Shown: positions 2,387 to 52,363 of the stretch, piece after piece
How the letters are laid out: every line of letters begins with the position of its first letter
Position numbering within the stretch: position 1 is the stretch's first letter
DNA from: Parapristionchus giblindavisi
Lineage: Eukaryota; Nematoda; Chromadorea; Rhabditida; Diplogasteridae
Length of the DNA: 64,000 bases
NCBI GenBank assembly: GCA_943737045.1
Contig: CALSFV010000339.1
Location: 62,001-126,000, forward strand
Reading direction: 5' to 3'
Program-made: the position numbers and the translations under genes
The notes under the pieces: generated by a model
Told to the model about the DNA's origin: nothing
Databases searched by the model: none
The model's input: only the letters and a program-made list of their open reading frames with translations

Positions 2387-5300
2387 TTAGTACTGCTTCC
2401 TCTTGACAATCTCTGGCCGCCACACAATCGGATGAGATTCTTCCGTCTGTAATCAATCAATAGAATCTTTTGAATATTACAAAAACTTCAATCAATAAAA
2501 TGTTTTGTCCTTACAGCAGTATCATCCTCCTTGTACATCTTGATAGTCTTATCAGCTTCAGCTGTTATCAATCTCAATCCAGTCTTATCAAATGTCATCG
2601 CATAGATGCCAGCCTCTGAATCGATTGATCCTGGCTGTGGTTTCACCTGAAAATACGTGATTAGGAAAAATCGATCAGCATCATCAAAAGATTGATCAAT
2701 AGATCAGACATAACTACTACTACTACTACCGTACCTGTTCTTGCTGGAAGCAGAATCCACTCCTCCAGTCCCAGAAGCGCATCGATCCATTGTCACCTTA
2801 GATAACATAATCAATCGATAATACCATAACCCCACGGTAAATAAACTACCGTACCTCCAGATACGAGCACTCCATCTTGATTGCACGCAAGAGAGTTCAC
2901 GATGGCATTATGTCCAGGTAGATTCTGGATATATTGGATTAATAAAATCACTGATCGTATTGCTTTCATCAATACATTGCACGAAAACACAAGATTCCCC
3001 AACATTAGCGAGTTAAAGACCCGGCAGTTGATACTTATTTCCAACATAAATGATTACCTGCATGAATTCTCCATTGGGACACTTCCATTGCTTGATATTA
3101 TCAGGACTGGCAGATGCAAACATATACAGAGTGGGATGGAGGGCAAGGGCACGAACTGATTTCTGAAATTATCACATGAGAATAAATTCAATTTAGTCGA
3201 ATATTCAGTAATGGCAAAATGCTTATGCGGAGCAATAAACCAGTCAAATAGAAAATATAAAAATATTATTCTTATTATTATTATAGATTATCCAGATGCG
3301 TATTATTGATTTGTATGTACAATACCTTATGATGAGTAAGGGAGCACACACTCCTTCCTGCTGCTAGATCCCACAATCGAATCGTTGAATCGTGCGAGGC
3401 TGTGATCACCTAGACAAGAGAAGGAATCAATCAATAAAGTGGGCGGAGTCTACCATACCACCGTACCTGAGGATCAGCTGATTGACACACGACATCAGCT
3501 ACCGTATTCGTGTGACCGCCAAGACAATGAATCTGTGCCTTTGTACGCATATCCCATACCTGAAAGATATTTGACTTTCAAATGACAAATGTGTAGTAAA
3601 TGACAAACAAGAACTAGACTATACTCCTTATTTATATCAATGAAACAGATATTAATTTTTTTACTTACTGAAACATCTTCGCGATGTATGATAAATAAAA
3701 AAATAAAATAACATTGCCTATAAAATAATCTATAATTGTATTCCAATTCGCTAACAGTCAAATGGATTTGTTACAAAAAAAGAACTAGATGAATTCGTGT
3801 TTCATAGTACGCATATTAAATGCAATATGCCACATTCATCAATTCCAAACAATTAACTTAATAGAGAAAACGAAAAACAAACTCTGGCAGTTGAATCACG
3901 AGCAGCAGTTACGAGTACGTCAAGAGTGGGATGGTATGCGATCGCCTGAATTCAATCAATAATCATTCAAATCAATCAATAAGTGCAGCCAATCTACAGT
4001 ACCTGTATGGCAGACAAATGACCGTGATAGTGACGAATTACCTTGTTGTACTCCAGATCCCAACATTTCACCTCAAATATCGATTGATTAGAATAAATAG
4101 AATCATACATGGGCGCCGACATGGGGGTGCCCCCTGTAAAATTAGGGCTTTTCAAAATTTTGTGGAATGCCCTCTGTAAAAAATGACGTTTGGATGAAAT
4201 TTTTGAAAAAAAAGTGTAAAATTAACCATTTTCGTTAAAAAAACTCCCATATGCGGTCAGATTTTTACATTACTATAATATATCGTCCAAGATTTCTCAA
4301 GTTCCATTAATACAACATCAATGCATCATACCTGTTTATCTTCTCCTCCACTGAACAAGAATGGATGTCTATTGGAGATCTTGACTGCTCTCACTGCAGA
4401 GATGTGACCAGTGAGAGACAACTTCAGTTTGCCCGATGCCAAGTCCCAGATCTGAAATGAAATCAATATTCAAAAGTATCGCGAGCAGGGGGCAAAAAAG
4501 CAATCCGATAATGTCCGACGATTTGAGGGGGGGGGGGGGGGTTCCGCGTTCAGACCGCAAAATTAAAGGGATATCGCCAAAAATGCGAAGGAGTATATAT
4601 TCTCAGAATTTTCGACCACCCCCTCCAATTTTTGAGAGTATTTTGGAGTCCGTTCAAAAACAACCCCCTTTTACCCCATGAATATGGATGGCATGATACA
4701 GTAAGGATACAATGTAATACAGTACCTTGATGATACGATCAGCTCCTCCAGATGCAAACCATTGATTCTCAGGTTCAACATCCACAGCACGAACCCATCC
4801 TGTGTGACCTGAAATCAAGATATATCAGTATTATTTTATTCATGAAAGAAAAAATTATCGTAATCCATCAACTTCACGAATTACAACGACAAAAATAATA
4901 TATTTCCAAAACACTAAATCACAAGGCTAGTTCGCGACGGATCAACTTTGAATTTAAAAAAACAATTTAAATAAATAAATATTTTAGACAAACCAGAGAT
5001 GACTCGATATAGCTTCCATGGTGCATGCCACTTTGGTTTGACCATCATGGGTGCCTTTGATGGCAGAAGTGCACGTGTAGTGTTATCATCATTACGAGAT
5101 TGACTCGATCCTTTTGATCCAGTTGGTAGTACTGACAGAATCTCACTGAAAATTAATCGATAAGATCAAGGACACCCAAGAATCGGAAGAATCATTCGAA
5201 CAAATAGAAAGGACGAATAAATACTTCCAGAAACGATAATTCAACTGGCTCACAGGCACATAAATTTGGCCAACGACAACAACAACGTTCTATGACATAC

Positions 5301-15543: not shown

Positions 15544-16794
15544 ATGGCCGATCATTCTGAACCATCAACGTTCATTCCAGACTGGCAAGTAAGCAACCAT
15601 TTGTTACAATCTTCTTGAATTGTATTTTGGCAAGTCCATTTATTGATCAGTATACCAATTAAAATTAATATATGAACGGCTGAGTAATATGTTCAAATTG
15701 CAGGTGATCTTATCACAATGGGGGAACGGATAGAGGTGGAGGATACGTATAAGCAGTCGAGTGAGATTTTTTTATTTCAAAATGTCGTCTTTCCCGATTG
15801 AGAGTGTATCCAATTCGAATTCATTCAGAAGCATAATGTTGAATTCGAAAAATTAAATAATGAAATCATTCAATCTTGGGAAAGCTGCAAAAAAGTAATC
15901 AATAATTTGTGATTACTGTAGTTGATCTTAATCGATTTCAGGCGTATTGGAGTAGTATTCTACGTAGTTGTGATCAATATCTTTATGAAATAAAAGAGGA
16001 ATTATTATTCACTACTGTTGCTATTGATGCTATGGTATTGGTTATTTTCGTATTGATTGATTGTTATTGATCTACTGTATTTGAACTGTACCAGTTATAT
16101 GATCATCATTTATGTATTCAGGTGCCTATTCTCAAATTGAATGGAGCGATCATCGACTCATTGACTGGTAATAGATTCGAAATTGATGTGAGTTAGTAAG
16201 GGGAATTGACAACCTTTTGATTTATTTGCGATAATTTATGTAATTTAAAGGGACGGTATCCCTTGGAGAATTACATGTTCAAATTCGCGGGAGATCCTCA
16301 TACGGAAAAGTCGAACTAGAATATTTCATAGAAATCAGCAAAAATCACAACGCAAAGTGGTGGTGGAACTCGTCAGCTACGGCCGTTGAGGGCGCCGTAG
16401 ACCACTAGGCCATCAATAGACAAATTTTTGCTAGGGAAGTGCTATACTTATTCATGATCTCTTTGTATTCACTGGTTGTATTATGAGACAGCCTATTCCT
16501 TATGCCAATCAACTATCGATTTGCCTAAATCGAGTGGATAGAATACGAGTCGCTTCCTATCCAGTCTATCTTTTCTCTGTCACGATGTTTTTGCACTGCC
16601 CCGGCGCAGATATCAATGGCGATTTTCAAAAACTACCGTATGATAGTTCGTCAATTCGTGGTGGGACAAAATTTCACGTGCAAACATTTTCGACATTTCA
16701 ATCAATATTTTTATGGGAAACTCTCCCTTTAAGGCTAATTCAAGTGTATCTAATGAGATTTTCGTCTCTGGACTTCATAATTCTTTCTAGTTTG
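15544..16794 (+). pseudogene. Broken copy of the CID1/GLD-2-type nucleotidyltransferase
   Basis: Parallel to the intact gene at 21242-24015. It opens MADHSEPSTFIPDWQ (intact copy MANRYESQTFIPDWQ). An extra G in the second exon (about 15720) shifts the frame to an early stop. After VEFEKLNNEIIQSWESCK the copy joins straight to the 3' end of the catalytic exon plus its following intron (15895), so the exon with the GS...DID motif is deleted. Later exons (SSILRSCDQYLYEIKEELL, VPILKLNGAIIDSLTGNRFE) survive. A TTAA-flanked insertion (16249-16728) interrupts the gene just before SSVSNEIFVSGLHNS, where the third catalytic Asp position is also changed. No homologous sequence follows 16794. Clearly a pseudogene by three independent lesions. 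Confidence 0.85.
16245..16732. mobile_element. ~480-bp TTAA-flanked MITE with a tRNA-like segment
   Basis: Relative to the intact paralogue, whose empty site reads AATTTAAGGCTGA, this copy has an insert bounded by TTAA at 16245-16248 and 16729-16732. The termini are AGGGACGGTATCCC and its imperfect complement GGGAAACTCTCCCT. TTAA duplication with short TIRs suggests mobilisation by a piggyBac-type transposase. The interior holds, on the minus strand at 16352-16413, TGGCCTAGTGG (A-box form) followed by a degenerate B-box. Confidence 0.82.
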
Positions 16795-16799
16795 CCTTT

Positions 16800-17226
16800 A
16801 TTTATGTAACGTTTAAAAATTTCTCGTGTGATTATATCAAAAAGCAATGTTCAGATTGTATGTTCTATAATTGCATTCTTCCTTCGTTTTGGTCTTTCTT
16901 CAATGTTCTATTCTGTTTATTAATTTTCTGTTTGGTCATTTTAAATATATTTTGCCTAGAATAGAAGAATATTCTTAATTGTATAAACTTATATGATAAG
17001 CTTTATCTCTTAATTGTCGATTCATCTAAGCCCATAGACATGTTTTAATCAATGCTACCAGTTTTCATTGTATTCTTATTTCTTATGTAAATAAAGTTTT
17101 TTTTCTAAATATGATGTGATATACCAACTGACGTTGTTGCATATCTCACTGGACTACTTGTACATTTGTTAATTGGAATACAAATTAAAAGTGTTTATTC
17201 AATGTTAGTTACAGTATCCTTCTGGG
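16800..17226. other. AT-rich intergenic sequence
   Basis: AT-rich, without a conserved ORF. Between the nucleotidyltransferase pseudogene and the MYG1-like gene. The last 20 bases include 'gttacag', which could be an acceptor for either an upstream 5' exon or a spliced leader. Confidence 0.5.
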
Positions 17227-20200
17227 ATGGGAGATCGTTTGATAAGAAAGAAGGAGAAAGTTATTCTCGTTCATAATGCAAAGTTTAAATCATTTGATCT
17301 ATTAGGATGTCATATTCTAAAGAAACTTTCACAATTTCGTGATCATCGTATTGTAAGGTATTCACTCAATCAATTTTTCTTTAAACTTTTATATCTAATT
17401 TTCGGTCTCGCGATGAGAAATGGTTTGATCGTGCTGATGTATTGGTTGGTGTAGGAGGTATCAATTTATTATGTCCAACTATTTTCCTTTTCTGGGCATT
17501 TTTCTTAATTAAAGTAGATGAACTATGGTTTTCTACATTACAAAAATGTAAAAAAAAATCTTTTCCAACTTTGAGCTTATTTCACATCACTTGTCGATTA
17601 AATCTTTCATCTAATCGATAAAAATGAATAATATAATTAATCTCATAGCTGTCTTCTCTCATGAACTAAAGAGATATGATGCAGTTAGATATAAAGTGAA
17701 CGAAACAATGAGATCATTGACTGGAATTCCATTTGATACTACTCTATCACATACAGGTTATCAATCAATCAATATTCATAATAATATCGATTTTTTAGGG
17801 TTGATCTACGCATTTTATGGTAGAGAATATATCTCACAAATCACAGGAGATCCGGTTATTTATATATTTTTCTAAATTTAATTATATGCATTTCATAGAT
17901 CGATTCCCCTGAAGTTGATAGAATATTCGAAGAAGCTTATCGTAGAGTTATTGATCAATGTGACAGACATTATTGTGATGGATTCCCCGAAGATTCTATG
18001 TATGAAGAATTATTGATTTTTGTTTTTTTTTCCTAAAAAAATCTATATTTCAGTTCATGCTTCAAATCACACACAGGAAGTTTTGCTCCTCGATCGACAT
18101 TTTATCGTCGTTTTTGGTATGAAAATGAAAATGAAGAAGATGAATTAGAACGATTTATGAATGGAATGAGAGTTATTGGAAGAGAACTTGATGATACTGT
18201 GTCATTTCTTCGTTGGGTACTGTATATCATAAATCAATATTTATATTAACTCCTTTACAGGGCGAAGTTGATTTATTAGAACCACGTAGAGAATTGTGGA
18301 AATTTCGTGATGAGATCAGTTATACGGTAATTAATTTGGTCAAGAAATATATTGATTATGTCAATAAACAGATTGATCTACGAGTGATATCAGATGAAGA
18401 TATTGGAGAAGTTGATATAGTTGATGGTATATATGAATGTATTGGATTGAAGATGTGTGATAAAGTAGTGGCTGAAGATGTCTTTCCAGTATTTCTCATC
18501 TCTCAATTACATAATCCTCCTCGTATTGTTTTGAGGTTACAGATTAAATTATTGTATTTATTATTCCGATCTTTGTAATTTCAGATCAAACGATCAGTCC
18601 ATTTTGTTGAAATGTAGATACACTGTTGGTGTTAAAGGTTATTTTTTTCAATTAAAAGGACCTGATGATTTAATTTACAGTACCAATGGAATCAGATGAT
18701 AAAGATAATGAATTGAAACGGGAGAATATGACTAAAAGATTACGAAAACTAGCAGAGAAGGTTAATGATGATGATTCTATATTAGGTTTGTGTAGTTTTT
18801 TAAACTTTTTTCCCTTTTTTTCATTGTAAATATGTTAATTTCAGAAAATCAAACTCATCATTTCGGTAAAAACAATGCAAATAATTACAAGAAGGTAGAT
18901 ATTTTAAATGTAAAGATGATTTAATAAAAACAGAAATTCTCTGTAGATCCGTTCCATGTTAAAAACGCCTAAAGAAGAGGAAGAATGTTATCTAAGGGCA
19001 AGAAAAGATGCTTGGAGAGCTGTTGCTCGTTGTTTCAATAGAAAAAAGAGTGGTTTCTTTGAGAGAATGAGGTTTGAGAAAGTATAAAGTAATTGATCTA
19101 ATCAATATTTCATAGTATCTATTTGGATGCTGGTATTTGGGATTTGGTTGATAGAATAAACTATGCAAGATGTGAATTAGATTCTAATGAAAGGTACAGT
19201 AATTGTTATATGTCGTATTATTGATTAGTATATTGACAGATTTAATAAGGCTGTCGATACAATTGGAGCTTATGTTGAGACTTTGGTAGAATATAACATT
19301 ATGGTTTGTTTATCTTTATGATTTGACAAAAATATTTATTCTGACCAAGGATTCACAAACTCCTCGAGAATATCAATTTAAAAAGGATTGGGATAAGAGA
19401 GTTGAAGTTAGTTTCTCTTTTATTAGTAATATCTATATGATCAATATTTAGATTACCGGAAGTGAAAGATTACTGTATTTGGATGAATCTTATCCCATTC
19501 ATGATCTATTGATTAAATATGAGGTTTATTTGCTCTTACAAAATATTGAATATCATAAATCTAGACAAATTATTCTATTACTAGGAATTCGCTGAGATTG
19601 CTCATAATGGTATTCTATATGTGATTGTTAATCAAAAGAGAGACAATAATTACATTGTTCAACCAGTAACTGCTCTACATGGAAAGACTATTATTGATCA
19701 TATACAGTATGCTTGATTTGATTATAGATAATCAATAATCACTTGATTTCTTCAGACGTAAACCATTCCCTAATGTATGGTGGGGTCGTAGAGGAAAAGA
19801 TGCAGCCAATTGTACTATGGTATATATTCCCTATTAATATATTGATTGATATAATTAATTGATATTAAGATCTCTGATTGTATCTTTGTACATGCACAAG
19901 GATTTCTGGCTGTTTGTTTGAGTAAAGAAGGAGCTATTAAATTAGCATTGAATGCAGTCAATGCAACTGGGATTGAATATTATGATTTTAACAAGAATAA
20001 AACGGATGATGATGGAGAGGTTTTTTCTTATTCTTAAATACATACTCTAATATTGATTTCTACAGATGACTAAATGTGTTTTGAATGATATTATGAATCG
20101 TGAATCTGTGAGTATTCAAACTATTTTTTTAAATCAAGCCATTTGTGTTTCAGATAAGTGGAAGTAATCGTATTATTGTTATTGACAATCCTTATGTATG

Positions 20201-20698
20201 GTGGAATGAACTGAAGGAACTCGAAGTTTGTTTCTTCCTTTTTTTTACTAACATGTTTTATGTTTTTGATAGTTAAAATTGTATTTTTAGATCAATAATC
20301 CTGAATTAGCATCATGTCAAGTACTGTACGCCATTCAAAAACAGAGAGATAGTGATAAATGGATTGTGTTAGCTATTCCCCTCTTACACAGAAGTGGAGG
20401 TGGTATACGGTAAGTATATTTTAATATATAAAAATAAATATTAATTATTTGAGGAAGCGTTTTCCCGTTTCTTGGAGAAATTTGAGTGGAGAAGAAGCAT
20501 CGATGATCACTCAGGTATATTGAGAATACTGTAATATGAGTTATTGATTATTAATTGTTTGAGGTTGATGATTGTGAGATTGTAAATGAAGAGAGAACAT
20601 TTGCAATAGTTGGATCAAGAGAAGGAGCTATAAGATTAGCTAATTATGCTATTAACTATAAGGAAATTAATCTTAAAGATTTTCCTGATACTAAATAA
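17227..20698 (+). CDS. Divergent MYG1-type (UPF0160/DHH) protein with lost catalytic motifs and repeated C-terminal modules
   Basis: Hand-spliced to roughly 780 residues, about twice a normal MYG1. Normal MYG1 is a DHH-superfamily 3'-5' RNA exonuclease of nucleus and mitochondria. The N-terminal part aligns in order: VILVHNAKFKSFDLLGCHIL (family HNGxFHxDEAL), FRDHRIVR, RDEKWFDRADVLVGVG, then RYDAVRYKVNETMRSL at about 17690 (family RYDHHQ...ETMSSL), LIYAFYGREYI. The metal-binding FHxDE and DHH residues are gone. Further on, FNKAVDTIGAYVETLVEYN and PFPNVWWGRRGKDA with SDCIFVHAQGFLAVCLSKEG (about 19870-19930) match the MYG1 C-terminal half (CIFVHASGF...TREGA), and a third module follows (NPYVWWNELKE..., DDCEIVNEERTFAIVGSREG). 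Stop TAA at 20696-20698. About 23 small exons. One acceptor near 17407 lacks AG. Divergent functional gene or early pseudogene; family assignment is fairly sure. Confidence 0.76.
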
Positions 20699-21241
20699 AT
20701 GATCTTGTTAATGGTTGAGATTTAAAAAAAAAACTATCTGTTATATTTTCCTTAACTTATTAAAACCTCGTTCTTAGAATGCTAATTATAATGAGTAGTA
20801 ATATTAATAGTATCGTTTTATCTATGAGATTAGACACTCAATAGTAGTCATTTTGCTCATTGTTTTTTTGTTTACTTGTAAAGTCTTTTAGAACGTTTAT
20901 TCATTTTATCATTCTTTTCTCATCTTTGTTGTCATTTAGTAATTATGAGGGAACATGTTGATGTTTACGTGTGCAATGTTTATGTTCTCGATTGGATAAA
21001 AACTTTTATACCTATTATACTATTTAAATTTAAAAAAAATAGTAATAAAATATAATAAGAAGAATAATAAACTAAAGAAAGAAATTAAAAAGTGTAAAGT
21101 ATGACACATTCACGTTAATTTGGTGAACTACCGTACTTTTAAGGGCTGAAGCCGTCCATCAAAATTTCAAGTTTAAAAAAATATTTATGGTATTTTTACA
21201 TGATTATTTTGATTTGCATTTTCTAGCTTATTCGGGTGGTT
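20699..21241. other. AT-rich intergenic sequence
   Basis: No ORF or repeat recognised. The last ~60 bp ('ttgcattttctagcttattcggg' region) are shared with the same position before the pseudogene at 15544, so the duplication reached into the 5' flank and includes a probable acceptor 'ttttctag'. Confidence 0.5.
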
Positions 21242-24015
21242 ATGGCCAATCGTTATGAATCACAGACGTTCATTCCAGACTGGCAGGTAAGAGACCATTT
21301 GTTATAGTCTTCTTGACGTGTATTTTCTTCATTTATTGTTCAATATACCAATTAAAATTAATATATGAATGACTGATGCTTTTTTCAAACTGCAGGTGGT
21401 CTTATCACAATGGGGAACGGATAAAATGGGAGGATACGTAAAAGCACTCGAGTAGGATTTTTATAACAAAATTGTCTCTTGACCCAATTGAGAGTATATC
21501 AAATTCAGATTTATTCAGAAGCACGAGGTTGAATTCGGAAAACTAAACGATGAAATTATTCAATTTTGGGAGAGCTGCAAACAGGTATAACTTAATAAAT
21601 CAAACATCAATTACCCGTATAATATGAAACACTTTTATTTGTATATTCAGCCCGATTGGCAATATCGATGCAAAATCCAGTTCAAGAATCGTATGGAGAA
21701 GTACCTGCAGTCAAAGATCAGTGTAGGTTCTCTTTGTTATAATTGATCACCCACTACAGTATCTTATTCTTCACTATTCATTCACTTACAGTATCCCTTG
21801 TCACTTATTTACTTATATTATTCTTGTGTTACAGACTTGTATAACTTCGTGCTGAGCATGTCGTTAAATTATAGTATCTTCTCATTCATCTCTAATTCAT
21901 TTACAGTAATTACTTCTTAATCTCTCATTTACTTACAGTATCCCTTCCAATTGGTTATCACTGGGTCAACCATTTCCGGTGTGGCCACAGCCAATTCTGA
22001 TATCGACATCTGTATGTGTGCACCAAAGATTCTTGGCGATGTTCAACTCGATCCACATGATATGAAAAAGTAATCAATAATTTATGATTACTGTAGTTGA
22101 TCTCAATCGATTTCAGACGTATTCGAACTATTCTACGTCGTTGTAAACAATATCTTGATGAGATAGCAGACGAATTAGGATTAACTAGTATTGATTATGT
22201 TGATGCCATGGTATTGATTGGTTTCGTATTGATTGATTGTTTCTGATCTACTGTGTTTGAGCTATGCCAGTAATCATTCATTTGTTCAGGTACCTATTCT
22301 CAAATTGAATGGAGCAATCACTGACTCAGAGACTGGTAATAGATTCGAAATTGATGTGAGTTGACAATCTGCCAACAATCTTTTCATGTATATTCGATAA
22401 TTTATTTAATTTAAGGCTGATTTGAGTATATCTAATGATATTTTCGTTTCTGGACTTCATAATTCTCATCTAGTGAGAGGATACACAAGGTTTATATTGT
22501 TATGATTATTGGAGTTTCGATTATATAAAAATTGGGATTAATAAAATAAGACGAAGCGGTATCAATATTATTAGAATTAATGGTTTTATCTGGATCTCCG
22601 TGTAGGGGGGTCTAAGAGTGGTTGAGTGTGGGTAAAAGAAGAAATGATACATAGACGATATGTTTCATCTATTCGCTCATAGACAGATGTTACTATCAAT
22701 TAACATGTCTCTAATCTTGAAACATCTGGATATATCAACTGCGAATACTTTCATATCATCGATAGACCACTCATATCCTTCTTCACTCTCCTGTATCGAT
22801 TAGTTCATATCGATTGATTTATTCCAATTTCAGAGTAGATGAACGATTTGCTCCTCTTGTCGTATTCATTAAGAAATGGGCATCAGGGGCAGGAGTAAAA
22901 GATCCTCAACATAGGAGATTCAATAGGTATACTGTATCACTTAAACCACAGACCGATCTCGTTTTACTATTCGCTCTGGGAATGCTCTCTCGCTTTCTTT
23001 GTCTGCGAGAGAGTCTATCTGCCTGCCCGTTGCCAGAGAGGAGAGTATAATTAACTCGGAATAGTTCTCCCCTCATATCTCACACTGTTTCTCTTGTTCT
23101 CTTTATACGAGGAAACATTGGCCACTTCATTTTATTATCCATTTCTGTCTCACTTCTTTCATTCATCATTCATCATTCCTCAATATCATTAATTCAAGTC
23201 TTCGTTTTCTTAATTCATTTCATAATTTACTTTTATTCTCTCACAGTTATGCAATTACCCTTCTCGTCATTCATTTTCTTCAATGTGCCATGCCCAATCC
23301 CGTTCTGCCTAATCTACAAGTAATCAATAATATCTTTTTATCTCGATCATACTGTATTCTTCAGGGTATCTATCCGGGATTCTATGCAATAGCTCACGAT
23401 AACTTCCCGGATACGGTAGACGTGGAACAAGATCTTCCTGAACCTCTTCCTGGTGATTATTGATTGATTGATTATTGATTATTCTATCGATATAAATTTC
23501 AGATTTACCAAGATTGCCAAAGAATCGTTTGTTGGTATCTCATCTGTTCTATCTATTCCTCGTATACTATTCAAGCATCGATCTGAGGAACCTTGTTCGT
23601 TCCTACAGTAATCAATCAATCAATCAATCGATATCAGGTGATCCGTGTGAAATGTGGTCGTATCTGTCATCGTCTTCGTCGAGATGAAAAAGGTTCTGAA
23701 GAAGATGCTGTAGCTCCTCCTGATAAATATAAACATAGTCAAATATTCATTGAGGTATTTCATTATCGATTAATTGATTATTGATTAATTAATTGATTTT
23801 TTACAGGATCCAATCGATGATCACAATCCAGGTCGTACTGTAGATGATTGGGAAGCCGTCAGAGGATGTTTCGAGTTGGTTTATTGATTACTGTAGGCCA
23901 CTACCGTATTACTTTCGGAATATTGATTTTCAGGGATACGGCCTATACTTTTCAACGAGTGGACGATCGATATGATATGTACCTGTTTCCTGATATCGAC
24001 GATCTGCTCTATTGA
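21242..24015 (+). CDS. CID1/GLD-2-family RNA nucleotidyltransferase (poly(A) or poly(U) polymerase)
   Basis: Adds nucleotides to RNA 3' ends; nematodes have several such enzymes (GLD-2, PUP and CDE-1 types) in germline and small-RNA pathways. The ATG at 21242 opens MANRYESQTFIPDWQ. The catalytic exon (about 21941-22070) has FQLVITGSTISGVATANSDI followed by DICMCAPK, i.e. the pol-beta GS...DxD motif. The third Asp lies in EIDADLSISNDIFVSG (about 22365-22460). The central domain follows: RVDERFAPLVVFIKKWASG (22836-22925), YAITLLVIHFLQC with PNPVLPNLQ (23247-23322), GIYPGFYAIAHDNFPDT, and the PAP-associated tail IEDPIDDHNPGRTVDDWE (about 23750-23880). Stop TGA at 24013-24015 after DIDDLLY. All catalytic residues are present. 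A hairpin MITE lies in one intron. Substrate (A or U) cannot be told. It converges on the gene at 24196 with only 180 bp between stops. Confidence 0.9.
22941..23070. mobile_element. Hairpin MITE (CTCTCG family), nucleotidyltransferase intron
   Basis: Starts near CTTAAACCACAGACCGATCT and includes CTCTCTCGCTTTCTTTGTCT followed by GCGAGAGAG, the hairpin loop typical of the family, then TTGCCAGAGAGGAGAGT. The outer ends are degraded. Confidence 0.65.
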
Positions 24016-26784: not shown

Positions 26785-29700
26785 CTATTTCTTTTGTAGC
26801 GAGGAAACAAATGAGAAAAGATGATTAGCGAGATATTTAGGTTCTTCGAAAGCAGCAAAATGTCCTCCATCTGGTAGAATAACTTGAGATGTTAGATTTA
26901 CCATCGTTGAGATTATCTATAAAGGAATCTCATTTTGATAATCTGGATGTATTATTTCACACCGATATAAACTTTCATATGTTGTACATGTTTTAGTTAT
27001 CGTAGTCCTTAGTTTTTTTACAGATAAAGAAACTAGAATTTCATTGACATTGATCCCCGCTCTTTGTTCCTGTTTTCAAACACAATTAATTCAACTCGTG
27101 GTCACAATATGAAGCTTTGTGATCACCTAGCATCTTCTTATAAGTATTTACCCTTTCTTAGTAATAGAATAGTCTCTCAATGGAACTCTTTAGATTATTC
27201 GATTGTAACAGTGCAAAACCCTGTGTACTTTAGTTCTTATATACGTAATTTAATACTGTGATTTATAGCCCGTTAAAAAATAATGGAAAACCGAAATCGG
27301 CCACTTTCCACCCGTTAAAAAGTACTCGGAAAGTCGAAAATGGAAACAGGAAATTTGAATTCGAGCGCGAAGAGCTGCGGGAATTCAAATTCCGACTTTC
27401 CGTCAACGATTTAAACTCAACTTCCTGCTCGCTCAAAAAAATTGAAATCCGCGAAAATTCGCCGTCGGAAAGTCGGAATTTGAATTCCGCACCTCTTTGC
27501 ACGCGTACGAATTCAAATTTCATGTTTCCAGTTTCGAGTTTCCGGGTACTTTTTTAACGGGTGGAAAGTCGCCGATTTCGGTTTTCCACTATTTTTTAAC
27601 GAGCCATCAGTTGTTACAGTTCTTCGCTTTTTCTTAATTTATATTAGTACTGTTCAATGATTTTTTTAAACTCTGTCATTAAATTGAAAGGTGGGATAAA
27701 TATTTAATATATTTATTGTTATAAGTATGACCTATGGAGTAAAATGTTAAAGGCATACCCTGAGCAAATTTAAAATTTTCCGCTCTCGCAACGCTCTCTC
27801 TCGTTTTCTTTATCTGTCTACTAGAGCAATATTGGAGAGTTTCTAATTATCTCATTGCGAATGTTTAACAATGAATTATGAAATACCTCAGCTGGTTCTT
27901 TATCAAAGAGTTCATTCTTGAATTGAGCATGTGCTGTAGGAACGGATATGTACATACTGGAATAATTTAATTTAATTTTAAAAATGTTACAGCTTATAAG
28001 CTTGAATCAATCAATATTCTACCTTCCAAGTGCAAAAAAGTCAGAAGAAGAGAAACATTCTTTGTAGAATCGCTGGGATGAGACAATGTTACCCTTCAAT
28101 CAAATTATTATTCAATCAATAAAGTGTAACATCAAACCTGAGTCCAGTACATGGTAATTACGGTAAGAAGTTCATCAAGGGTAAACTTTCTATAATAGAA
28201 TCAATCAATAATAATGGTTTCCACAGTATTCCTATGAGTGAACTCAACAAAATGTTGTTAGGACAAAATACATGAATGAGTAATTCGTTTAATAAAAATG
28301 TAAAATCTGCCATAATTTTACTAATTACAAGCGTTTTCATCTTTCCTCAAATGCTTTACCGTCCAAGTATCCCCTTAAAAATATATGTAGACCATACTTG
28401 GTGAGTCCTCCATCTTCTAACTTTCTATAATTAGCATTGGTCCATGTGGAGAACTTCTCCAGAATATAAGCAGCCAATCCAATCGGAGAATCGTTTAGAG
28501 CAGTTCCTTAAAATATCATAAGATAAATAAGATAATAAGATAAGTAGAATTTTTATTGTTTATACAGAATAAATAAATATCTACTATTATCTCTATAATT
28601 TATTTAAATAATATTTATTTAGACTATGATCACTTTATCATTCCACTCACCTACAGTATCCGGTTTAGTTGCCTGAATATGCATGTATCCAGACTCCTTC
28701 AGCATCTCCTTCATATTAGTGAGTGGACTATAGTTATGATGATGCTCATGAGCAAATATGGACTGAAAAATCAAAGATCAACCTTAGTTAAACCGAGATA
28801 GGCCGAACAGTTTCACATAATAAAGATCAAAGATCAATTTGACAATGAACAAACCTTGGGGAAAAAGGATCCTAAAATCATATAGAGCAGAGCCTTTCCT
28901 TTACCCGGTGTAACAGGCATCATGTTCACATGGAGAGCGTGGACACTACAAAAAGATCAAAGATCAAAGGTCAAAGATCAAAGATCAAATCGCTAACCTC
29001 TCAGGATAGACCCTAGCCATGTTCGCAGTGATAATTGCTCCCCAATCTCCTCCTTGAAGGTAAAACCTTGAAATAAGCAATGAATCAATAGATAAATCAA
29101 TCGATATTCTTACTTTCTATGACCAAGTCTCTCCATGAGCTTCTTGAATACTCGAGCTGCTGCAAGTGGACCGAATCCTTCAATTATTGATTAGTTCGTA
29201 GATCATGATAGAATCAATCAATACCAGTCTTCTTTGGTTGTCCAGAGAATCCATATCCAGGAATGGATGGGGCAATTACTTCGAATGCAAAATCGTCATT
29301 GCCAATCTTATAGGCAACAGGATCAACTAACATCGGAATGATCTGAAATAGAGGATCACAATATGTAATATTATTGATTGATCTATCAAAGGGTTAATTA
29401 AATAGTTACTAGAATCTGGATATCGAAAATCGTCTGTATATCTAATCATAATTGTCGATTGATTGCTCACCTTGTAGAATTCAAATACACATCCGGGCCA
29501 TCCATGAACAATAAGCAATGGAAGAACCTTTTTGTATTTCTTAGCATCCGGTTTGACATGGTAATAGTGTACCTACAACGATATTCAATCAATAAATATC
29601 CATGTACGATATTTTGTGACTTGTGGAAGAAGTGTTGTGTAATGTGAGTTTATGGCAGTATGAGAATATAGTAATGTACATCTAATAGAAAAACAAATAA

Positions 29701-32317: not shown

Positions 32318-38070
<5,753 letters not shown>

Positions 38071-39717: not shown

Positions 39718-42700
39718 TCAAGCTGATGGATCTCCATTAAGGGTATGTTTCCATTGAATTTTAGTTGTTCCTTCATCAACTTCTTCTTTTATATCCGAAT
39801 GATTCCTTTGTACACTTTCTGATACACTACTCTCTCCTTCCCTACCGTATCCCGAATCCAGCATCACTGAAAATAAATATATTATACAATACCTTTCTAC
39901 CCCAAACATATTCCGTTTGTCTGTCATACGTGACCATAGACGTTCACCTATCCCAGCGACTTCATATATAAGAAAAACTGTGCCACCCTTTTACTCAACC
40001 ATTACGAGGACAATACAAACATATTACTATTACTGCTATTGTAAAAAAATATATATATATATAAATACGTACCACTCGGAGTTGGAGGAGCTAATGAATC
40101 AGTGAGGATATGTTGAGGTGATGAAAGAGTAGTTGAAGGTGCAGTAGATGGAGACATTGGAGACCAATCCTCTACTTCTTCGATTAATCGATTCTCTTGC
40201 ATTGAACTGACAATGAATACAATCCTTTTGTGGATAAGCTACGATCATTTTCATTAACGAACAACGGATATGTTTTATGATATGCTAAAAAGTTTAAATA
40301 TGTCTGTATCGGTGATCTTATCATCTTAACCGGTGTTACATTTCCATAATTGCGCACGCCGCACCCTCCGCCGTAACGACGGAGACGTTGCGAAAACGTT
40401 ACGGCGGAGGTTACGGCGTGCGCACGTTTTGAAAATGTAACTCCCCATTATGTTTTCTAAAATAGGAAAAATTATTTGAGCAAAATTTAAAATTTGCCAT
40501 GAATATTAATTTAATTCTATAGTATTAAACACCCCATCTAATTTTACTCTCCTATTTGGCAATACTCTCTAGCAGACAAAGAAAGCGAGAGAGTGTGGCC
40601 AGAGCGGAGAGTCTCAAGTTAACTTAGAGTGAAACAGTTTTGAATATAATAATAAATACAAACCATCTTCTACTCATATTCAACAATCGACTTCTTCTTT
40701 TCTCTTTGAATTCCTCCACATATTGCTGAAGAATCGCATGCATCTGTCAATTTTATAATGTATTATGATTATGGACTTATTGGAATGAAACATGTGACTA
40801 ATTAATTTAAACCTAACATTTCAAAACTTAAAGGGACCGTTACCTCATTCAATGGTCTCTTCATTGCGCACACTATTTTTCTGTTCTCTAACAACGAGAG
40901 AGCATTGCGCGTCGAAGAGACCATTGAGTGAGGTTACGCTCCATTTAATGAGTTACGATTTTTCCGCAAATGTTTTCGTTCTTCTCTGCTTTTATTTTAT
41001 TGTTAAATAATTTTAAAATATACCGGTGATTCATCACTGTTAGCATATTCTCCAATCTTGAGATCATCATATCCTAATAGAAGATATCTCTCTTCATCCA
41101 TTATAAATGATCCATTTGAAGAGACTGTCGAGATCATTGAACCTTAATTTTATTTATTTTTATTTCTGAAAAAAAAAACTGAATTTGAGAGCGAGGACAA
41201 TTTCTTAAAGACAATTTCTTCAAAAAAATCATATGGAAATAATTTCTTTAAAATAACAAAATTTACATGGAAGAATTGATTTAAAGGTACACCCGATCAA
41301 TAATATTTGCGATTCTCAGGTCTAGCAATGCTCTCTCGCTTTCTTAGTCTACGAGAGAGCGTTGCTAGAGCGGAGATTAAGATTTGCTCGGGTGTCCATA
41401 TAAAATTAAATAAATATTCAATGAATAATGATATAAATATGATAAATACCAGGTCGTCTCTTAATAACAGATCCTCCATTTTCTCCATTGAATCCATTAT
41501 CAGTTTGTACTCCAATACTCTTCACTCTTAATCTATTCTCATTCTCTTCAACGAGTTTATGAAGTTGATCCGATGCAAGAATCTTCGAGAATATCATTGA
41601 TCTGATAATCAACGATTATGAATTATCAAGTACAAAACCAAAATCGCCTTATCCTATCTATCCCTCGTCTGCCCTTATTCACCACTCCTCATTATATTTG
41701 ATGGAATAAAGAAATAAATAATTGAATAAATAAGTAGGAAATAAAAATACAGTGTTGTCAGTTCAAACTGATATGGTCATCATCATCTTATTATGGAGTG
41801 TGAAATATGTTTCAGATTAGATTTTAGAGATGCAGTAGGATAGTGATACAATGTTCGTGATGATCTAGTGAAGTAACGAAAAGAAATTAACTCTCCCCTT
41901 TTCACACTCTCTTACGTTATTTTTCACACATTTTTGTCAATTTTATTTTCTGGTTTTCGTGACGTTTGAACATGACAGTGGACTCACTTGAAATCATTCC
42001 TATTAGGTCTCAATCTTTCCAATGTTTGTATTCGATTGAATAATGCTCTATTCTGCATTACTGATGACTGTCGAAGAAGACGAACACTTCCATTATGAGA
42101 TCCTGATTATTATTAATATTACTAATCAATATTTTGTGATAAATCATTAATTTTTTTCGAATTCTTCTTTTTAACTATATTGCTTTCAGGTAGAACCAAA
42201 GAGATAAATAAATAGAGATATCGCATTAGATTATAAAAATTATTTTAAAAAAACAATACAAAGAAGATTAGCATCATTATAAATATAATATACTTGAATA
42301 TAATTCTTGATAAATGTGATTAAAATGAAATATAATATACTTGAATGTTTCCTCATAATGGGTGATCTACTCTCGATATGAGCCATATGTAATCGTGGAC
42401 TATCTTCTACATTCAATTCCATTACTCCTTCATTCCATTCACTTCTTTCTTCTTTATCTTCTATTAATTCTTCTTCGTCTTCTTCTTCGTCTGAATCTGA
42501 ATCAGGATCAGATTCCAATTGACGGCCTATCACCTATAAGAACGCAAGTTGTTATATCACACTCTTTTGGTTATTGTGCGATTATTCCTCTTTAGCTCTC
42601 AGCTAACCCCGTGCTTAATTAACACTTATTGTTAACTCATCTAAGTCAACAATCAATAAATTTTCAAAATCAAAACGAAAATAGATGGTTATGGGACATT

Positions 42701-51130: not shown

Positions 51131-52363
51131 GGTTGTCGGGAAAGTCTTGACACCTTTTTCGACCGTTTATTTCTCGAAGCAAACAGAAGTACGTTATGGG
51201 TTATATGCTCCATCATGATCAACAAATGTAGTGCCAACGTTCAGCCAATGTGTGGTTTCCCTCTTTGTAGAACCCAGCTGGGCGCGAAGTAAAGTATTGC
51301 TTGAGTTGAGACTCGACACTTCCACGGGACTTGAAGGTCCTATCTCGAAGGGCACGGGTCACGCTTGCGAAAAGCTAGTAATCCGACGGGGCCAAGTCAG
51401 GAGAATACGGGGGGTGATGGAGAACCATCCATCCATATACGGCCAGTTCCTGCCTGACTTTATTGAAAACATGGTGACGGTGGTAATAGTGGTGATAATA
51501 TACTTTTTTGTTCTTCTGACTTGAAAGATCTACTGCCTTCATCATATTCCGTAGTTGTGTGACGCACTTGGACTTGGTAATTGTCATGCCCTCGGGGAGC
51601 AGCTGCCAGCTGATCACACCATCCATTCCCCACCACACTGACAGCATGGGTTTTTGGGGGAGCAGGTTAGGTTTGGGGGCATCCTGTGGTGTCTCTCGTT
51701 CTTCAACAATCTCGGCTCACCTGTGGTTGTTATAGTAGTAGACCCACGTTTCATCCCCCGTTATGAGCCGGTCCAGCCATCGATCCCCAGAGTGGAGAGT
51801 GGGTGGATAATGGAATCATCGATTCGACGATGAAGGTTGGTTTTGGTGTGATCATAGGGTATGAATCGACCTTGAAATTTTCACATTCCAATGGATTTCC
51901 GGTATTCCTCGACTGTGCTATGGTGGACTTCAAGTGTGATGACCAATTTACAGACACTTTGAAATCGGTCCGATTCCACAAGTTTCTTCGACGTGTCAAA
52001 ATCCAACTCACGGGGTCTGCCGTTTAAGGAAGGAAATGTCGTTTCCTTTGAAGCGCAGGAACCAAGTCTTGATGGTGTTGTAGTGTGGGCATGTCTGTCA
52101 TAAAAAAATCTTCAGGAGGGTATCCGAATCCTACGTCGTGGTGTCGGATAGGAAGAGGTAAAATGGAACATGACGGTCGTGGAAAGCACTAATGTCATAC
52201 ATTGTTGCACAACTAGAGCCTGACTGATGTGATTGTAATGGGGAGTTGTTTACTGCAAAGGCACATCACTGCTTGGTATACACTAGTAACGAGAGAAACC
52301 CAAAGTGCAACTGCGACACACAGTGGAAAGGCAAACATATGTGTCAAGACTTTCCCGACAACC
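51131..52363 (-). mobile_element. Full-length but decayed mariner transposon
   Basis: Terminal inverted repeats of about 24 bp (GGTTGTCGGGAAAGTCTTGA plus CAC, and the exact complement at 52341-52363) with a TA target duplication on both sides (51129-51130, 52364-52365). The 1.23-kb length is normal for mariner. It carries the transposase relic on the minus strand. Confidence 0.95.
51370..52030 (-). pseudogene. Mariner (DD34D) transposase, inactivated
   Basis: DNA transposase of the Tc1/mariner superfamily. Minus-strand fragments in order: GRPRELDFDTSKKLVESDRF, HHSTVEEYRKSIGM then a stop, ITGDETWVYYYNNHR (first catalytic Asp kept) then a stop, MLSVWWGMDGVISWQLLPEG, and HHPPYSPDLAPSDY (third Asp kept). 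The second catalytic Asp of the HHDNARPH motif is replaced: the copy reads HHYYHRHH. With several stops and frameshifts it cannot encode an active enzyme. Confidence 0.92.

Follow-up and report, generated by a model that had tools for sequence, protein, structure and literature searches.

MYG1 (UPF0160, PF03690) is a 3'-5' RNA exonuclease. Human MYG1 in which the DHH motif was changed to ALL is described in passages of PMC11167044 as lacking exonuclease activity yet still driving growth and glycolysis, in part less strongly, which suggests roles for the family outside catalysis; a dead paralog could retain these. Two other nuclease families offer comparisons. In Cdc45, three of four active-site motifs are inactivated according to passages of PMC4873980, and by analogy Cdc45 is a precedent for the conversion of a dead DHH-family nuclease into a structural subunit. 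Among the Dis3/RNase II family, the fungal pseudonucleases such as Ssd1 are RNA-binding proteins, as portions of PMC8097288 and PMC8934651 report.

Here we analyse a gene, which we call pseudo-MYG1, in a 64,000-nucleotide stretch of the genome of the nematode Parapristionchus giblindavisi (the window). It matches the family profile over all three of its modules and shares the position and phase of many introns with canonical MYG1; unlike the latter, it has replaced active-site residues, repeated modules and a length of 730 rather than 353 aa. It is changed at the same motif as the human DHH-to-ALL protein (H67A, H68V), as far as that protein is described in the passages cited, but the change is natural, and the protein is far more divergent and carries extra modules. 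Cdc45, in contrast, is RecJ-related and part of the CMG helicase, and Pfam did not report the Cdc45 family for the whole pseudo-MYG1 protein at E up to 1. The likeness to Ssd1, judged from the same portions of those papers, is that of a presumably dead 3'-5' exoribonuclease paralog beside an active one, although the Ssd1 nuclease family is unrelated to MYG1 and RNA binding has been described for Ssd1. Titles and abstract openings of the literature on MYG1/UPF0160/C12orf10 and Pristionchus contained nothing on a pseudo-MYG1 gene.

Gene model and family membership

The window gene, copy A, was modelled by splicing and by comparison with two paralogs, copies B and C:

17227..20698, + strand: pseudo-MYG1 copy A (GT-AG splice model and comparison with the two paralogs)
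17353..17417, + strand: intron 1, splice sites shifted relative to canonical intron 1
18327..18371, + strand: 45-nt intron, stop-free in copy A (comparison of A, B and C)

Copy A extends from an ATG at 17227 to the end of its stop codon at 20698, exactly the span of the original prediction, and comprises 24 exons and 23 introns; after splicing, its fully open frame encodes 730 aa and not the roughly 780 residues first estimated. The introns measure 42-65 nt except for one of 191 nt, and their positions are conserved in copies B and C. All 23 are GT-AG in copies A and B, and copy C has one GC-AG intron. We read intron 18327-18371 as spliced out because its counterpart contains stops in copy B (45 nt) and has a length of 49 nt in copy C. 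Leaving it in gives a 745-aa reading, which, whole or in pieces, was the query for the Pfam, PDB-chain, protein-database and genome protein searches and for self-BLASTP. At intron 1, none of the three copies has an AG at the place matching the canonical acceptor; instead they appear to use a donor a few bases upstream together with a downstream acceptor, with the frame kept, and through this shift the codons matching canonical RSRD would be gone from the copy A mRNA.

Pfam placed the 745-aa reading in PF03690 (MYG1_exonuc) with E 1e-65 and 222.9 bits against a cut-off of 22.1, bearing out the predicted MYG1-type identity. The match falls into three stretches, and with E allowed up to 1 Pfam assigned the whole protein to this family alone. 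Among PDB entries, MYG1 chains, which we take to be the human protein, matched at E down to 5e-18. The original prediction had proposed looking for a second, canonical MYG1, and the genome has one intact gene of this kind on contig C333, with 11 exons, 353 aa and every motif intact. Its product shares 81% identity with a protein from Pristionchus mayeri and 79% with one from P. fissidentatus, as expected of a diplogastrid in or near Pristionchus. In a tree built on module 1 of copies A and B with the canonical gene and 25 MYG1 homologues, the canonical gene grouped with these two proteins (support 100/100); A and B sat jointly at the tip of a branch of ~6.7 changes per column, a length from which their origin cannot be dated.

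Active site and module architecture

Family conservation was assessed on 120 listed homologues; as the best 120 of 2931 matches, they represent near relatives of the canonical gene. Against this background, motifs I, II, III and IV of the exonuclease are all broken in copy A, two of them by the following replacements:

17272..17298, + strand: motif I, HNAKFKSFD for H-x-G-x-FHCDE (H15K, D17F and E18D in canonical numbering)
17672..17686, + strand: motif III, RYDAV for RYDHH (H67A, H68V), with AV in all three copies

Both substitutions named at the outset, FKSFD for FHxDE (FHCDE in the family) and RYDAV for RYDHH, are thus present as stated. The motif I residues are the same in the three copies except at canonical position 12 (A/A/G). 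Motif II reads VGVGA for VDVGG (D53 to G), motif III continues as RYDAVR against RYDHHQ in the family, and motif IV reads CDRHYCDG for D-x-x-D-N-G, with DNG lost; the first D of motif IV may be kept, in an ambiguous part of the alignment. In the 120 best of 2931 homologues, H15 and D17 are invariant in 117/117 ungapped rows, and D53, D66-H67-H68-Q69 (DHHQ) and D135-N136-G137 (DNG) each occur in 120/120. All three copies have K, F, G and DAVR instead at these sites, and DNG is missing from each. Five of eight distinct PDB MYG1 sequences have, relative to the commonest one, alanine variants at D17, E18, D53, H67 or D135 (the other two variant sequences were left out of the comparison), and so mark the same positions as those changed in the three copies. 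Copy A keeps H10 and D66, as well as D132 by one alignment, and therefore could still bind metal weakly.

Taking residues present at >=97% in >=110 rows as family-invariant, module 1 covers 48, and 26 of these differ in copy A. The idea that metal ligands had been lost selectively found no statistical support: copy A keeps 3/10 ligand-type and 19/38 other invariant residues (Fisher p 0.31), and copy B 3/10 and 18/38 (p 0.48). Among the fold residues quoted as retained, LIY..G and CIFVH..GF....EGA are there, whereas the supposed NETMSSL is NETMRSL. Invariant residues kept in the C-terminal parts of copy A number 15/28 in module 2 and 5/23 in module 3; within the GFIGG motif, AV (module 2) or AI (module 3) stands in place of GG.

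Judging by exon lengths and intron phases, the protein has a three-part order in which a MYG1 unit without C-terminal domain is followed by a second, degenerate MYG1 unit and by one more C-terminal domain:

17227..18326, + strand: module 1 (aa 1-220), dead DHH domain and linker helix, no C-terminal domain
18372..20019, + strand: module 2 (aa 221-588), second MYG1 unit (intron chain, exon lengths, Pfam)
18585..18637, + strand: exon 9, RSNDQSILLKCRYTVGVK, corresponding to RSRDTEVLKTCDVVVDVG of canonical exon 2
20066..20698, + strand: module 3 (aa 589-730), further C-terminal domain (Pfam E 8e-14)

Module 1 matches canonical residues 1 to ~213 (Pfam E 7e-19 for aa 1-144) and has introns at canonical positions 55/1, 91/1, 110/0 and 145/2, with 213/0 mapped by hand. 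The canonical 173/2 intron is absent from module 1 (window 18054-18216) and present in module 2. In module 2, a strongly degenerate DHH half (aa ~238-385) precedes a linker helix and a C-terminal domain (Pfam E 4e-25), and canonical exons 2-9 are matched both in exon length and in the chain of introns. Module 3 has an intron at canonical 275/2. The program mafft --add misaligned the start of modules 2 and 3, so that positions 145/2 (module 2), 213/0 and 239/0 (both module 3) were placed manually on profile alignments; the intron at 588/0 may correspond to canonical 331/0 instead of ~194/0. Introns additional to those of the canonical gene lie at its positions ~194 and 296. With domain limits taken from a canonical model, the protein departs from the family's single DHH domain, linker helix and C-terminal domain in having the C-terminal domain twice. 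The two C-terminal modules (aa ~386-588 and 589-730) match each other by self-BLASTP at E 7e-18 with 34% identity, in agreement with the original claim of at least two. Calling this a multiplied C-terminal half nevertheless understates the architecture, as an N-terminal (DHH) half, in degenerate form, apparently survives in the second unit too.

The similarity of that second DHH half to the canonical gene is uneven. Exon 9 has the length (53 nt) and intron phases of canonical exon 2, and its peptide scores z 5.6 against it, with 0/300 shuffles as high. Exon 11 reaches z 2.9 against its counterpart and exon 8b a weak 1.86 (11/300 shuffles), while exons 10 and 12 show no similarity in this exon-wise test (z 0.05 and -0.97); exon 7 of module 1 is also weak (z 0.83). 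Taken together, the five module 2 exons score z 4.2. Global hhalign of the remnant aligned only 6 columns, with 57/300 shuffles equal, and local hhalign was matched by 0/200 shuffles, or 4/200 with a longer region; the reading of this half therefore relies on the local alignment, the exon lengths and the exon-wise scores in place of the global alignment.

Paralogous copies and selection

With the protein as query, the genome (251 Mb, 703 contigs) yielded 52 matches (34 scored candidates), every one of them at one of four loci: copy A in the window, copy B (C214), copy C (C284) and the canonical gene (C333). Neither copy A nor copy C was picked up by a six-frame Pfam search of the genome. By blastn, copies B and C share with the window the following blocks:

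16757..21037, + strand: block similar to copy B
16815..20727, + strand: block similar to copy C

Beyond these blocks only scattered repeats match, in flanks of ~1.4 + 3.4 kb for B and 1.7 + 2.2 kb for C. We consider it unlikely that the copies are assembly haplotypes rather than paralogs, given that similarity ends at the edges of ~4 kb blocks and that there are three diverged copies. An origin by retrocopying was rejected on account of the introns common to pseudo-MYG1 and the canonical gene.

Over 722 common codons, amino-acid identity is 87.3% for A-B, 83.2% for A-C and 83.5% for B-C, and intron identity is 81, 79 and 78%, respectively. All three copies agree at 565/722 residues, the longest identical runs being 648-679, 115-142, 250-275 and 74-96. 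The former motif IV region lies in the 28-residue run 115-142, EVDRIFEEAYRRVIDQCDRHYCDGFPED, which contains Cys, His and Asp. Exonic gaps in copy C are confined to exon 10 (24 nt lost, 3 gained). Introns 2, 8, 20 and 23 of copy B have insertions of 122 to 300 nt relative to A, with splice sites kept. Two elements in the window (27271-27607 and 40827-40949) match pieces of the copy C locus (845-1193 and 3091-3213) in both orientations; one of them sits inside a copy C intron, and they look like inverted-repeat mobile elements.

The loss of catalytic residues, the 26/48 changed invariant residues, the moved intron 1 splice sites and the GC donor in copy C would all fit duplicates that are decaying and have so far escaped stops. 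The comparison of the three copies led us to reject this reading, which we regard as very unlikely. No stops occur in any copy over the common codons, despite synonymous divergence of 0.26-0.31 (NG86) and intron divergence of 19-22%. When A and B were simulated neutrally with the observed number of changes, a mean of 14 stops arose and 0/1000 runs were stop-free; the fraction of amino-acid-changing differences is 0.54, compared with 0.82 +- 0.03 under neutrality. For A-B, A-C and B-C, dN/dS is 0.25, 0.31 and 0.27 by NG86 and 0.16, 0.17 and 0.16 by YN00, and by module the A-B values of 0.19, 0.28, 0.33 and 0.20 (bootstrap upper limits 0.33-0.60) are well below 1 throughout. Exonic indels between A and B number three (3, 12 and 1 nt), the 1-nt indel lying at the final codons, where the last residues of copy B are changed; of 25 intronic indels, 17 are not multiples of 3. 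Splice sites are conserved. By this comparison, the coding frame of copies A, B and C is under purifying selection. Open frames in all copies, matching introns and dN/dS of 0.16-0.31 argue that pseudo-MYG1 is not a pseudogene. Stops or neutral dN/dS had been named as what would reveal a pseudogene, and looking across the paralogs we found neither; a pseudoenzyme, as originally proposed, fits the lost motifs combined with selection in three copies.

With the 745-aa query, a search of 5.8 billion proteins found no match among 7993 scored candidates, and a module 2 query found one MYG1-family protein (P0001). The pseudo-MYG1 family is apparently restricted to this lineage, a point that is weakly tested because the search requires shared 5-residue words and similar length and may let other diplogastrids escape.

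Origin and possible function

Our favoured reading, to which we assign a probability of about 0.72, is that the MYG1 exonuclease gene was duplicated in the lineage of this nematode and that one duplicate lost the metal site and grew by duplication of its own exons, with breakpoints probably in introns, into a fusion of a MYG1 unit lacking the C-terminal domain, a degenerate MYG1 unit and a further C-terminal domain. The fused gene would then have been copied to at least three loci and kept under purifying selection. Its product would lack nuclease activity and act as a binding protein; the likeliest role is that of a protein-protein adaptor or a regulatory partner, perhaps one serving MYG1 or the proteins that MYG1 works with. 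Sequence comparison supports the origin, the repeated architecture, the loss of active-site residues, the intact frames, the selection and the canonical MYG1 alongside; purifying selection is silent on what the protein does. We infer the binding role because the catalytic residues and the C-terminal glycine motif are gone, whereas elsewhere some stretches show strict conservation across the three copies. The longest identical runs point to candidate interaction surfaces in the dead DHH domain, at the beginning of module 2 and in module 3. More tentatively, intron-bounded exon duplication may have turned MYG1 into a multi-domain, non-catalytic platform with a new binding surface at motif IV, whose three paralogs regulate canonical MYG1 or its nuclear-mitochondrial pathway; this extended version is doubtful.

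The original suggestion of an RNA-binding protein, that is, a pseudonuclease that still binds RNA via the MYG1 fold and competes with MYG1 for its substrates or guides them, is possible, but we rate it below a role as protein adaptor or regulatory partner. The family fold is retained by profile match, the degenerate DHH half of module 2 is basic (pI 8.3, net +2), and RNA binding is described for Ssd1 and further pseudonucleases of the Dis3/RNase II family in the portions of PMC8097288 and PMC8934651 cited above. However, R38, R40 and, in both C-terminal modules, the GFIGG glycines are lost, and the whole protein is acidic (pI 5.5-5.9 for copies A, B and C), which is weak evidence because canonical MYG1, which acts on RNA, is acidic as well (pI 5.6). 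The conserved run over former motif IV, with its Cys, His and Asp, could instead belong to a neo-functionalised hydrolase with a different activity; we think this improbable, as Pfam at E up to 1 reports no other family.

Toxin-antidote elements are known in nematodes, and a selfish or rapidly copied gene, for example part of such an element built from a duplicated housekeeping gene, would fit the dispersed duplication of a ~4 kb unit containing just pseudo-MYG1 and the lack of a relative in the protein database when searched by shared 5-residue words and similar length. But the shared blocks hold no second gene, with ~0.5 kb of flank on either side, and dN/dS is low in all copies; of all the readings weighed here, including decay, we find this one the hardest to credit.

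As a triplicated, selected and probably dead MYG1, the family is unusual beside the best 120 of 2931 homologues, all of which have DHHQ and DNG. It offers a natural separation of the enzymatic and non-enzymatic roles of the MYG1 family, and its exon record traces a probable path from a single-unit enzyme to a fused, repeated pseudoenzyme.

Elsewhere in the window, Rfam at gathering thresholds gave no match, and long simple-repeat tracts at 35163-35966 and 33329-33761 produce spurious long ORFs (SPSP, ERER, poly-Asn). Just downstream of copy A, an exon-like stretch at 21921-22070 (+ strand) matches a nucleotidyltransferase domain (PF01909, E 2e-4) and perhaps belongs to a poly(A)/uridylyl transferase gene. 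A piece of a mariner-type transposase lies at 51375-51716 (- strand; PF01359, E 3e-17). The mitochondrial COX1 match of the genome contains 11 TGA codons and is open when TGA is read as Trp.
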